22,108 nucleotides of DNA. Source: a virus. Within the stretch, counting starts at the first letter, position 1. Each line of letters begins with the position of its first letter. Below, in pieces: positions 1-22,108 of the stretch. Position numbers and translations under genes: made by a program. The stretch lies in the IMG/VR virus record IMGVR_UViG_3300034152_000380, positions 1 to 22,108 of that record. The stretch is one strand, 5' to 3'. The notes below the pieces were generated by a model. The model was not told the DNA's origin. It saw only the letters and a list, made by a program, of their open reading frames with translations, and made no database searches.

Positions 1-321
1 CCAGTATTTAACCAATTCAAACGACAAATCATCCTGAATAAACATACAATGTTCTGATATTCCAGATTCATACCACTCAATAAGAGTAGTAAATTCATTC
101 ATTACAATTGATGCATCTGATGGTGCTAATAGCATAAGATCTAACTTATGCCCCCACTCATCTATTTTATCAGTAGAAAATCTAGAAGCAGAAACTCTTG
201 TATAGTCTGTTATTCCCCATTTTTTAAACTCCCCCTCAATATGTTCTTTTCTATCTACTCTATGATCTAAATTTAAATAAAATATTGGTGGCAATCCTTT
301 CAATTTGTTTTCCAAATCCAT
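1..321 (-). CDS. Glycosyltransferase family 25-like protein, partial (N-terminal 107 residues)
   Basis: The frame is open from an ATG at 321 to the window edge, so only the N-terminal 107 residues are visible. The opening IFYLNLDHRVDRKEHIE (residues 13-29), followed by a GITDYTRVSA segment, resembles the start of family 25 (LPS biosynthesis type) glycosyltransferases. In that family 'Y.iNLd.r.dR' begins the nucleotide-sugar fold and 'R..A' follows the first helix. HCMFIQDDLSF near residues 91-101 fits the acidic sugar-nucleotide/metal-binding segment. The start overlaps the stop of the DegT-like gene by one base (TAATG), which indicates translational coupling. The inferred role is transfer of a sugar to a surface glycan or a virion protein. 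The acceptor and sugar cannot be read from the sequence, and the C-terminal half is outside the window. Confidence 0.6.
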   Translation of the reverse strand, partial: MDLENKLKGLPPIFYLNLDHRVDRKEHIEGEFKKWGITDYTRVSASRFSTDKIDEWGHKLDLMLLAPSDASIVMNEFTTLIEWYESGISEHCMFIQDDLSFELVKYW

Positions 322-8321: not shown

Positions 8322-8340
8322 ACGGGATGTTGAATCCCGT
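8322..8340 (-). terminator. Rho-independent terminator after regA
   Basis: On the minus strand ACGGGAT (8334-8340) pairs perfectly with ATCCCGT (8322-8328) around a 5-base loop, and T residues follow (8316-8321). It begins seven bases past the regA stop. A shorter T-run on the other side could give weak termination on the plus strand too. Confidence 0.85.
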
Positions 8341-13336: not shown

Positions 13337-13356
13337 GGGAGGCACAATTACCTCCC
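13337..13356 (-). terminator. Rho-independent terminator after the CobS/MoxR-like gene
   Basis: On the minus strand GGGAGG (13351-13356) pairs with CCTCCC (13337-13342) around an 8-base loop, followed by CC and a T-rich tract (13331-13334 and beyond). It starts nine bases past the gene stop. Confidence 0.8.
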
Positions 13357-18992: not shown

Positions 18993-20036
18993 TTATACTA
19001 ATTCACAAGCCTCTTTATAAACTTCTTGAATTATTTTTTGAATTGCTGTCTTATTTATTTGAGACTCACAATCTTCAACATATCTATTCAATATAGAAAC
19101 CGTATCTTCTGATTCTGGATCATATTCTTCGGGTACAGAATTTGAATCTAAGAATGTTTCTACAATTTTTAACTCTGCAATATTGATATCATATAATTTA
19201 TCTACAAATTTTTCAAACTTTCTTACATCACTTTTTTTACGAACAATTAGTTTTACAATCTTATTCTCATAATCACTTTCATTAATTGTTTTATAGTCAT
19301 TATCTTCATAATTAATGACCTCAAACATTCGATATGGATTATTGACTGGAACTAAGTTAAGGTCTTCAGTATCAAAAATATGAAATCCTCTCTCATCTCC
19401 AATATCATTAGAATAAATTTCGTAAGGATTTCCTAGATAGAAGATTTTTCCATTATCCGATCTAGTGTGATAGTGTCCCGAGAAGACAAGTTTGAACTTC
19501 TCAAATAATTTGCCATCCATACCTTCTTCCATGGTGTGTCCACGATAAGCTGGAAATCCTGAGAGTTCCAAGTGCCCCATCGCACAATTGCAAGAAGTAC
19601 TTTTGATAAGTTTACAAGTTTTTTCATAATTTTCTTCATTAATCCAAGGAATAATTAATACTCCAAGATTTCCTATTTTTATCTCAGTTGGTTCAGAATA
19701 AACATGAACATTTTGATACTCCCTTAGAAGTAAATCAATAGAATTTAAATCATTAGTATTTTTATAGTATGCAGTATGATTTCCAATTACAGTATGAACG
19801 GTACACCCAAGGTCTTTAAGTCTATCGTAATAATTATCCTTTGCCCAAGCAAGAGCAGCAAAGTCTATTCCTTTCCGACTATCAAATGTATCACCTAAAT
19901 CTATAATTGTTTTAATGTTATTTTTGATGATGTTTGGAAAAAACACATCTTCATAAAATTTTAGAAAATAATCATGAAATAATTTAGAGTTTTTACGAGC
20001 ACCAAAATGCTGATCTGTTATGATTGCAGATTTCAT
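18993..20036 (-). CDS. 47: Recombination nuclease subunit, gp47-like (Mre11/SbcD family)
   Basis: The product is 347 residues (T4 gp47 has 339). Metallophosphoesterase motifs appear in order: IITDQHFG with Asp8 and His10, DLGDTFDSRKG with Asp49, IGNHTAYY with Asn86-His87, MGHLEL with His154, and SGHYHTR with His187 and His189. These ligate the two metal ions of Mre11-type nucleases. It pairs with gp46. I place the start at the ATG of 20036, which overlaps the gene 55 stop by one base (TGATG); one codon further upstream is a TTG. All metal ligands are present, so it should be active. Confidence 0.95.
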   Translation of the reverse strand: MKSAIITDQHFGARKNSKLFHDYFLKFYEDVFFPNIIKNNIKTIIDLGDTFDSRKGIDFAALAWAKDNYYDRLKDLGCTVHTVIGNHTAYYKNTNDLNSIDLLLREYQNVHVYSEPTEIKIGNLGVLIIPWINEENYEKTCKLIKSTSCNCAMGHLELSGFPAYRGHTMEEGMDGKLFEKFKLVFSGHYHTRSDNGKIFYLGNPYEIYSNDIGDERGFHIFDTEDLNLVPVNNPYRMFEVINYEDNDYKTINESDYENKIVKLIVRKKSDVRKFEKFVDKLYDINIAELKIVETFLDSNSVPEEYDPESEDTVSILNRYVEDCESQINKTAIQKIIQEVYKEACELV

Positions 20037-20530
20037 CAATACCTTGATTTTGAGTGAATGCTGTCCTTGATGGAATTATACTCCGAATAGTTGCAACCGT
20101 CAATGGTATTATCGTCTACAAAAACCTCATCATAACCAGTCTTCTCAAGAATTTTATTTTTGATTTCCAATTGCTTCTTTTCCTTTTGAATTCTCCGAAG
20201 GAAAGCATAGTGAATAATTTGAGTAAAATATGCAAAAGGATTTTGAGACTTCTCTGGATTGAAATTGTGAATGTACTGAACACAATTTTCAATTCCATCA
20301 GAAATCATATCATCTTTAAAAATATAATTTACAAAGTTTGGTTTAAATGACAAATGAGTTGCAATCTTTAAAAAGCAATCACCAAGATAATTTGTAATTC
20401 TTGGTTTTGGATCTCCTCTCTTTTCTGCAAGATCCACCTCTTCTCTATATTTAATTAGAGCTTCTAAAAATTCTTTATTGTTTACGTAGTGTATTGACCT
20501 TTTTCTTTTTGTCATGGGTGTTGTGCTCAT
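20036..20530 (-). CDS. 55: Late-transcription sigma factor, gp55-like
   Basis: The 164-residue protein (T4 gp55 has 185) has YVNNKEFLEAL (15-25). A sigma-region-2-like block at 73-119 includes DDMISDGIENCVQYIHNFNP and NPFAYFTQI---AFLRRIQKEKK, closely following T4 gp55. It replaces the host sigma factor on RNA polymerase for late promoters, working with the gp45 clamp encoded downstream. The start at 20530 is preceded by an A/T-rich leader without a Shine-Dalgarno site; a second ATG is at 20515. It heads the 55-47-DUF3110-46 unit. Confidence 0.94.
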   Translation of the reverse strand: MSTTPMTKRKRSIHYVNNKEFLEALIKYREEVDLAEKRGDPKPRITNYLGDCFLKIATHLSFKPNFVNYIFKDDMISDGIENCVQYIHNFNPEKSQNPFAYFTQIIHYAFLRRIQKEKKQLEIKNKILEKTGYDEVFVDDNTIDGCNYSEYNSIKDSIHSKSRY

Positions 20531-20554: not shown

Positions 20555-20584
20555 ATTATAACACTACGAACTCAAATTAATCAA
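20555..20584 (-). promoter_or_regulatory. Sigma-70-type promoter for the gene 55-47-46 unit
   Basis: On the minus strand TTGATT (20579-20584), 18 bases, then TATAAT (20555-20560), followed by a leader of about 20 A/T-rich bases to the gene 55 ATG. It lies back to back with a plus-strand promoter only four bases away. Confidence 0.6.
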
Positions 20585-20598
20585 GGGCTTGACAAGGG
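20582..20598. repeat. Direct repeat CAAGGG spaced by one helical turn, with small palindrome
   Basis: CAAGGG occurs at 20582-20587 and again at 20593-20598, an 11-base offset. The first copy forms part of the palindrome CAAG-GG-CTTG (20582-20591). The repeats sit between and within the -35 boxes of the divergent promoters, where a regulator binding one helix face could control both. Confidence 0.35.
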
Positions 20599-20617
20599 TC
20601 TCAAAAATCAGTACAAT
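20589..20617 (+). promoter_or_regulatory. Near-consensus sigma-70 promoter on the plus strand, antisense to all genes
   Basis: TTGACA (20589-20594), exactly 17 bases, then TACAAT (20612-20617): 11 of 12 consensus bases with optimal spacing. Transcription would start near 20624-20625 and run rightwards, antisense to the Sm-like gene at 20647-21054 and then uvsW. A GGAGG at 20627-20631 precedes ATG at 20636, which opens a four-codon frame ending at 20650. No plus-strand gene of normal size follows, so the product may be a small or antisense RNA. Confidence 0.6.
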
Positions 20618-20635
20618 AACCTTTGTGGAGGTTTG

Positions 20636-20650
20636 ATGGGACTAGCTTAA
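20636..20650 (+). other. Four-codon mini-ORF with Shine-Dalgarno site downstream of the plus-strand promoter
   Basis: ATG GGA CTA GCT TAA, four bases after a GGAGG. The predicted transcript start is only about ten bases upstream, so the leader would be very short. It could be a leader peptide or chance. It overlaps the 3' end of the minus-strand gene at 20647. Confidence 0.25.
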
Positions 20651-21054
20651 TTACTTTTATAGAGTCTTTCTAAGATCTCTTTAGCATCATTTACATTAGA
20701 GATGTATCCCATTTTTCTACTAATCTTTTTTCTTACTTTATTGGGATCCTCTTTTTTACTAAATGGAGTAGATTCTTGAATCCAAGATTGATACATTACA
20801 ATCATTTCAAGATCTTTAGATTCACTCATAGTTAAAATATCATCCATATCAATAACAAACATGTCATCTTTAGTGGTTTTTAACCAAGGTTCTATCTTGT
20901 AACCAGTCATACCACCTCTTGTAGTCACTTCAGATAATGTAATTGGATTTGAAAGCAACAAAAGAGTTTTTTCATCTTCTTGACAAGGCATTACTTTAGA
21001 GAATATCTCTTCACCAGTTTTTAACTTTAGTGTTGCGTAAAAATCTTCTTCCAT
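20647..21054 (-). CDS. Sm-like small protein, paralogue A (downstream of uvsW)
   Basis: This 135-residue protein carries the same ordered elements as the two small proteins upstream of gene 43: LKTGEEIFSKV (11-21), SNPI (35-38), EPWLKTT (55-61), and ILTMSESKDL (73-82) followed by an aromatic at Tyr88. It adds a C-terminal extension of about 45 mostly charged residues. The N-terminal 85 residues suggest an Sm-like small barrel, a fold often used for RNA binding in rings. It starts one base after the uvsW stop, so it is co-expressed with that RNA-DNA helicase. Function is unknown; fold assignment is by pattern only. Confidence 0.65.
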   Translation of the reverse strand: MEEDFYATLKLKTGEEIFSKVMPCQEDEKTLLLLSNPITLSEVTTRGGMTGYKIEPWLKTTKDDMFVIDMDDILTMSESKDLEMIVMYQSWIQESTPFSKKEDPNKVRKKISRKMGYISNVNDAKEILERLYKSN

Positions 21055-21055
21055 A

Positions 21056-22108
21056 TTATTCTTTTAGATTAACGTTGATTATTTCATAATTAAACCTTTC
21101 TTCATTATAAATCTTAATTCGTTCTATTAAATGATTCAAAGTATAATTCTTTTTTGATTTATGAGTGCAATCATCAGATATATCATAAAGCATCGCCTTT
21201 GTTTTGTTTTTTCCTTTTCTTAAAACTCTTCCGATACTTTGTAAATTTCTAATTCTAGATTTACTTGGTGATGCAAAAACTACGTTGTGTAGGTTTCTTA
21301 TATTTATTCCAGTAGAAAATACACCATATGAAGCAACAATAATTGCATTAGATTCTCTCTCAGTAATCTCTCTGACAAGCTCTCTTTCTTCTGCATCTAC
21401 TCCACCATGAACAAAAAATACTTTTCTATCTTTTTGTTTATAGTGATTGATAAGTTCAAATAATGGTTTACCATGAGTCTCAACTCTTGAAAATAAAATA
21501 AGAGTATTACCTTTTAAGTCTAATGATAAGTTTTTTATAAATTTATTTCTTCTCTCATGATTAATTAAATATTGAATTTCATCTTCATAGCTTTCAAATA
21601 TTTTAGGATTATGCTTTAATACTAAACATCTAATGTCCAGTTTTGAAACATGTCCCTTCTCCATCAATTCAGCAGTTCTGATAATCTTATAAGAAGGTCC
21701 AAATAATCCTTCAAGAACCCATTTATGTGTTTGAGTACCATCTAAAGTTCCAGTAAATCCAAAACGATATTTTGCATGATGAAGTTTTGTCATGATACTA
21801 ATCAATGACTTACTTTTAAATAAATGTGCTTCATCACCAATAACTACTCCATAGTCTTCAAAAAAAGATCTTTCTAATTTATAAATTGATTGCCAAGTTG
21901 TAATGATAACTGAAGCATCTGAAGTTTTTTCTCTACCAGAATATATTTTGTGGCAATATGAGTCAGCATCCCAACCATAATCTTGAAAGTCCTTGTACAT
22001 CTGTTCTACAAGAGATGTCGTTGGAACAACTAGAAGAATTTTTTGCCCTTTATCCACATAGTATCTTACGAGAGAATAAATCATCAGTGATTTGCCTGAT
22101 GCAGTGGG
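21056..22108 (-). CDS. uvsW: UvsW-like RNA-DNA/DNA helicase, C-terminal part (5' end outside window)
   Basis: The frame stays open to the window edge, so this is the C-terminal 350 residues of a protein that in T4 has 587. The first visible residues PTASGKSL are Walker A (motif I). They are followed by VVPTTSLVEQM (Ia), VVIGDEAHLF (DEAH-type motif II), GFTGTL (III), LILFSRVETHG (IV), ASYGVFSTGINI (V) and QSIGRVLRKGK (VI). T4 UvsW unwinds R-loops and branched DNA, shutting off origin initiation and driving recombination-dependent replication. An internal ATG at 22084 is not the real start, since Walker A lies upstream of it. The Sm-like gene A follows one base after its stop. Confidence 0.95.
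   Translation of the reverse strand, partial: PTASGKSLMIYSLVRYYVDKGQKILLVVPTTSLVEQMYKDFQDYGWDADSYCHKIYSGREKTSDASVIITTWQSIYKLERSFFEDYGVVIGDEAHLFKSKSLISIMTKLHHAKYRFGFTGTLDGTQTHKWVLEGLFGPSYKIIRTAELMEKGHVSKLDIRCLVLKHNPKIFESYEDEIQYLINHERRNKFIKNLSLDLKGNTLILFSRVETHGKPLFELINHYKQKDRKVFFVHGGVDAEERELVREITERESNAIIVASYGVFSTGINIRNLHNVVFASPSKSRIRNLQSIGRVLRKGKNKTKAMLYDISDDCTHKSKKNYTLNHLIERIKIYNEERFNYEIINVNLKE

Follow-up and report, generated by a model that had tools for sequence, protein, structure and literature searches.

In essentially all of the T4-like marine cyanobacterial viruses examined, a predicted promoter of near-perfect consensus stands at the start of g55, the gene for the late-transcription sigma factor, facing away from that gene and reading antisense to its neighbours. 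Its recurrence at this position is not due to chance, and it probably belongs to a switch that times infection. Few marine viruses are as abundant as the T4-like cyanophages, and it is unsettled how, lacking the regulators of T4, they put early, middle and late expression in order. A geneless promoter that shares its −35 region with the g55 promoter is a concrete and testable candidate for the late switch, while a palindrome common to a few promoters in each phage provides a handle for finding the regulator.

The g55 junction and its two promoters

The window, that is, the whole stretch of DNA analysed, is a virus record of 22,108 bases and represents a fragment of a T4-like cyanophage of the Kyanoviridae type. 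The minus strand carries all genes around the junction: uvsW, an Sm-like gene, g55, the g47 nuclease gene and those for a DUF3110 protein and g46. Between g55 and the Sm-like gene lie 116 nt, which contain both of the promoters, facing away from each other. The features are:

20036–20530, minus strand: g55, late-transcription sigma factor (phrog_234, E 1.2e-67)
20555–20560, minus strand: −10 box of the g55 promoter, TATAAT, extended by TG-N (TATAAT in 46/62 lineages, TG in 58/62)
20579–20584, minus strand: −35 box of the g55 promoter, TTGATT (in most relatives TTGTCA, overlapping the antisense −35)
20589–20594, plus strand: −35 box of the antisense promoter, TTGACA (exact in 48/48 dereplicated junctions and in 77/77 of the g55-selected set)
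20612–20617, plus strand: −10 box of the antisense promoter, TACAAT (family pattern TANNAT)
20618–20633, plus strand: start-site palindrome AACCT-TTGTGG-AGGTT, a candidate operator, conserved and centred ~8 nt after the −10, on the predicted +1
20624–20626, plus strand: predicted antisense transcription start, placed by its spacing to the −10
20647–21054, minus strand: Sm-like gene (phrog_471; PF16243 at 37.5 bits, cut-off 29.4); the predicted antisense transcript would run opposite to it
21056–22108, minus strand, cut by the window end: uvsW helicase, opposite the antisense transcript if read-through reaches it

Two further observations concern the surroundings. A probable g47 promoter (TTGACG-17-TATAAT, 20103–20075, minus strand, 11/12) lies within the 3′ end of g55, just upstream of g47. 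Terminator-like sites are in excess between 2109 and 22108 (21 vs 7.4 ± 3.1 in shuffles), and they include two-way hairpins at 13337–13356 and 8322–8340.

The original prediction had described back-to-back promoters at this junction; both are present where it placed them, with the four bases that it gave between their −35 hexamers. The antisense promoter, TTGACA-17-TACAAT (20589–20617, plus strand), scores 11/12 against consensus. It had been called the best promoter match, which holds on the plus strand, where it is the sole match at 11/12, but not across the window, where it is one among five. That no plus-strand gene follows was borne out, the downstream plus-strand ORFs being only overlaps of minus-strand genes; in S-SM2, where almost all genes run in one direction, the next gene on the antisense strand lies ~100 kb ahead of the junction promoter. 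With TTGACA and a TATAAT-like −10 held 16–18 bp apart in the family, the promoter is of the host sigma-70 type. Boxes of TTGACA and TACAAT do not agree with a late promoter of the T4 type, which was also considered and would have TATAAATA as its −10 and lack a −35.

The g55 promoter of the window consists of TTGATT (20584–20579), a spacer of 18 and TATAAT (20560–20555), scoring 10/12 and having TG before the −10; its conserved extended −10 is TGNTATAAT. In a scan of 62 lineages, which mis-scored the sense boxes of Syn9 and Syn19 because it began too far downstream, the g55 −35 TTGTCA overlapped the antisense TTGACA (TTGTCAA/TTGACAA, offset −1) in 36. The offset was 7–10 in 24/62, the window included, a shift of 8–11 bp or about one helical turn. 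In Syn9, the two −35 boxes form the palindrome TTGACA..TGTCAA. Whether by this overlap or, as in the window, by lying 4 bp apart, the two are close enough to constitute an overlapping divergent pair. Two polymerases cannot share overlapping −35 boxes, and promoter competition would therefore be the simplest consequence.

A CAAGGG repeat with 11 bp spacing had also been described across the junction. The repeat is there, but most relatives do not keep it; it is composed of the conserved TTGACAAGG and the clade-specific TTGATT −35. Its candidacy as an operator was dismissed because the repeat itself is not conserved among relatives.

Conservation of the antisense promoter

Two sets of relatives, of 80 loci each, were fetched independently of the promoter, one by way of the Sm-like protein and the other by similarity to the g55 protein; loci L082–L200, which had been retrieved using the motif itself, were excluded from the conservation statistics. 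When the Sm-like set and the isolates were searched with a relaxed pattern, the promoter was found in 91/95 junctions, the remaining four being two that are truncated and two with TTGACA-17-TAGACT. After dereplication at 85% identity (n = 48), every junction had an exact TTGACA and a TANNAT −10, and 43/48 had a 17 bp spacer. Pairwise identity among these junctions was 100% in the −35 box, 45% in the spacer, 89% in the −10 box and 39–40% further downstream. Conservation of the boxes while the spacer has diverged indicates that the promoter is under selection, in the manner of a sigma-70 promoter, whose boxes are selected and whose spacer is not. Two spacer bases, 16 and 17 from the TTGACA start (20604–20605 in the window), are a conserved A-A of ~1.4 bits each; the spacer is otherwise free.

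In the g55-selected set, TTGACA-16..18-TANN(A/C)T occurred at the same place in 77/79 loci, the other two having TTGACA-17-TAGAGT, while a control stretch of equal length gave the promoter pattern in 0/80. Isolates with the junction promoter are P-SSM2, S-SSM7, Syn19, S-RSM4, Bellamy, S-SCSM1, P-TIM68, S-CAM7, Syn9 and S-SM2. Each of the six complete genomes scanned has just 3–5 near-consensus promoters on its anti-coding strand, and of these it is the junction promoter that keeps its position in 6/6. The TTGACA and TACAAT boxes, whose conservation had been named beforehand as a check on the prediction, are thus both kept across cyanomyoviruses.

A chance consensus match in AT-rich DNA might be suspected, given that promoter matches in the window are, as bare matches, no more frequent than in shuffled sequence (94 vs 89.2 ± 9.7 expected), even though shuffles of the intergenic sequence alone gave P 0.004 for the antisense promoter match. 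The antisense promoter is significant because it is conserved, not through its bare consensus score: its retention in independently fetched loci with diverged spacers, against none in the control stretch, refutes the explanation by chance, to which we assign a negligible probability. We conclude that the antisense promoter is, as judged from its conservation, very probably a real and functional one.

The palindrome at the predicted start site

Directly after the antisense −10 lies an inverted repeat, whose family form is nACCT-TTGTnn-AGGTn. Promoter and palindrome recur together at one to three other promoters per phage in the same genomes. Further copies of this element lie at 43249 in S-SM2, 50786 in Syn19 and 52764 in Syn9, at three other places each in S-CAM7 and Sf-FS3, and in S-SCSM1, S-RSM4, SynMITS9220M01 and three long metagenomic contigs. 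Some copies precede small ORFs, either of phrog_1653, where a ribosome-binding site is apparent, or of phrog_12251 and phrog_3371; others are non-coding. The phrog_1653 proteins, of ~64–72 aa, appear repeatedly after the element (L202, L234, L238, L139) and may be a member of a regulon or a regulator. Copies at L152 and L251 (Sf-FS3 33883) face the 3′ ends of other genes and so represent more antisense copies. No match to the whole promoter–palindrome element was found in ~85,000 prokaryote genomes, which indicates that it belongs to the phages; a host origin was rejected on the same absence of the pattern from prokaryote genome contigs.

The palindrome variant at g55 resembles the copies in its own genome more than those in other genomes (mean score 12.0 vs 7.3, permutation P 4e-5), in a small comparison, of 11 genomes, whose extra copies were found by consensus pattern, so that weaker copies may be missed. 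Likeness of the spacer, which served as a control, did not differ within and between genomes (6.7 vs 6.5, P 0.35). Since the palindrome varies in concert within genomes and the spacer does not, the copies appear to be kept alike by selection rather than by recent duplication. One palindrome at several promoters of a genome, differing from genome to genome, is what would be expected of an operator, and this suggests that a phage-specific trans-acting factor recognizes it. Two points count against this reading: both element copies of Syn9 have an imperfect palindrome, and at the coding copies the GGAGG of the 3′ arm would act as a ribosome-binding site, an alternative cause for part of the palindrome's conservation.

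An RNA hairpin formed by the inverted repeat was set aside as a candidate, the predicted start falling inside the repeat and RNAalifold finding no structure. Many variants of the repeat keep pairing or give G-U pairs on the plus strand, but swapping its 3′ halves between phages left the pairing score nearly unchanged. We treat the repeat as a presumptive DNA palindrome rather than an RNA hairpin.

Possible products of the antisense promoter

The antisense promoter had been proposed to make a small RNA. Searches of Rfam at gathering scores gave no match, RNAalifold found no consensus structure over +1 to +60 or +1 to +150, and the fold of the RNA predicted for the window is ordinary (z −0.51). 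Across relatives, no terminator is conserved at a fixed place opposite the Sm-like gene, that gene has no excess of synonymous constraint beyond the gene end, and neither an ORF nor a start codon is conserved on the plus strand after the promoter. The junction thus has neither the conserved structure or terminator nor the constraint on the opposite coding sequence that mark a cis-antisense or small RNA gene, and a dedicated structured small RNA is disfavoured. The RNA circuit that had been built on the Sm-like protein fared no better, adjacency being its sole support.

What the promoter could make instead is a long antisense RNA that spans both uvsW and the Sm-like gene, perhaps extending beyond them, and which would silence these genes early or protect their mRNA from host RNase E. 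The number of canonical plus-strand terminators between 20624 and 22108 is zero, the corresponding strand of S-SM2 is the one that is gene-free for ~100 kb, and read-through is plausible because cyanobacteria are not known to have Rho. Furthermore, antisense transcription has been reported in Kyanoviridae, with protection from RNase E proposed (PMC10976474), and for one such RNA, CfrI of cyanophage S-PM2, there is proof (Millard et al., 2010, via PMC2984593). Silencing alone, however, leaves unexplained why this promoter abuts or overlaps that of g55 and why it has its start-site palindrome in common with sense promoters, and we consider a long antisense RNA a rather doubtful account of the junction. 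A discrete, trans-acting small RNA that starts with the conserved start-site sequence is suggested by S-CAM7. Its four copies agree in that sequence and over most of the first ~35 nt, and two of them, both non-coding, have canonical terminators at distances of ~65 and ~135 nt downstream. The negative results of the structure, terminator and Rfam searches, together with identity that falls to background level downstream of the promoter, nevertheless make such an RNA unlikely at the junction. The two terminator-bearing copies themselves (L210, S-CAM7 209585; L236, S-CAM7 64077) are candidate small RNA genes, which have most of their first ~35 nt in common with the g55 antisense start.

Two other readings would give the promoter a product or role of a different kind. 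It might drive a small unrecognized plus-strand protein with GGAGG as its ribosome-binding site, the window sequence being GGAGGTTTG ATG GGA CTA GCT TAA; elsewhere (S-SM2 43249, L234, W04 36828), the GGAGG of the element does look like a ribosome-binding site. Across loci, the longest ORF starting no more than 70 nt from +1 has a median of 13 codons and reaches at least 30 codons in only 10%, and a small ORF, rejected on these lengths, is very improbable. Scarcely more credible is a replication origin in which the promoter would prime an R-loop, as at T4 ori(uvsY), on which UvsW would act: a strong geneless promoter does adjoin uvsW, but cumulative GC skew, by which we looked for an origin in six genomes, has no turning point at the junction.

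Proposed mechanism

We propose a paired-promoter switch that would time g55, in which the antisense promoter opposes g55 and a regulator at the palindrome shifts the balance; we regard it as a plausible model, somewhat short of an even chance. The two promoters, their conservation, the overlap of their −35 boxes, the palindrome and its concerted variation within genomes are all observed. On this foundation, the host-type sigma-70 promoter would fire away from g55, and transcription from the predicted start would enter the Sm-like gene, then uvsW, in antisense direction. It stands back-to-back with the g55 promoter, and in the lineages, the majority, in which the −35 boxes overlap, RNA polymerase could presumably occupy one promoter at a time; where they do not overlap, the two would compete closely for polymerase. 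Because the boxes do not overlap in the clade of the window, occlusion there would be partial. Antisense elongation would, in addition, oppose transcripts coming from uvsW and the Sm-like gene. A putative phage-encoded regulator would most likely act at the palindrome on the antisense start, which is common to one to three other promoters per phage. While the antisense promoter was active g55 would be held down, and action of the regulator would release it, thereby setting the time of late transcription. The suggestion that both promoters answer to one regulator gains partial and indirect support from the −35 overlap and from the palindrome common to promoters of one phage.

More tentatively still, we envisage a small cyanomyovirus regulon of two to four promoters, marked by the start-site palindrome and read by a putative, fast-evolving phage regulator. 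Its one invariant member would be the antisense promoter, joined to that of g55 and acting as a late-transcription timer in phages without MotA and AsiA.

Comparison with known systems

Host-type promoters are known in T4-like cyanophages (PMC2984593). CfrI of S-PM2 resembles the g55 junction in that antisense transcription in a T4-like cyanophage runs opposite a gene end and the neighbouring gene. It differs in belonging to the psbA/homing endonuclease locus, where neither a gene for a sigma factor nor a pair of back-to-back promoters is involved, and in being experimentally proven, whereas the junction antisense RNA is predicted from sequence. Doron et al. (2016, ISME J) are said to have mapped Syn9 transcription and to have described a ‘novel regulatory element’ of early genes and host-like middle promoters. 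The promoters reportedly described in that study resemble the one at the junction, being of the TTGACA-N17-TATAAT class and found in T4-like cyanophages without MotA/AsiA; the start-site palindrome may be, or may overlap, the novel element, and the antisense start, too, may already be on record there. In the papers that were searched, an antisense promoter at g55 is not mentioned.

T4 has the orthologous late sigma factor gene, g55. Its middle transcription uses MotA/AsiA, and the Sm-like neighbour (phrog_471) is a cyanophage arrangement. Overlapping promoter pairs that face away from each other are familiar in bacteria and phages, for example those of the araC/araBAD type and of phage switch regions. 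The junction is like these pairs, in which polymerase binding is mutually exclusive and regulators are shared; it is unlike them in that one of its arms is geneless and points antisense into a phage housekeeping operon.
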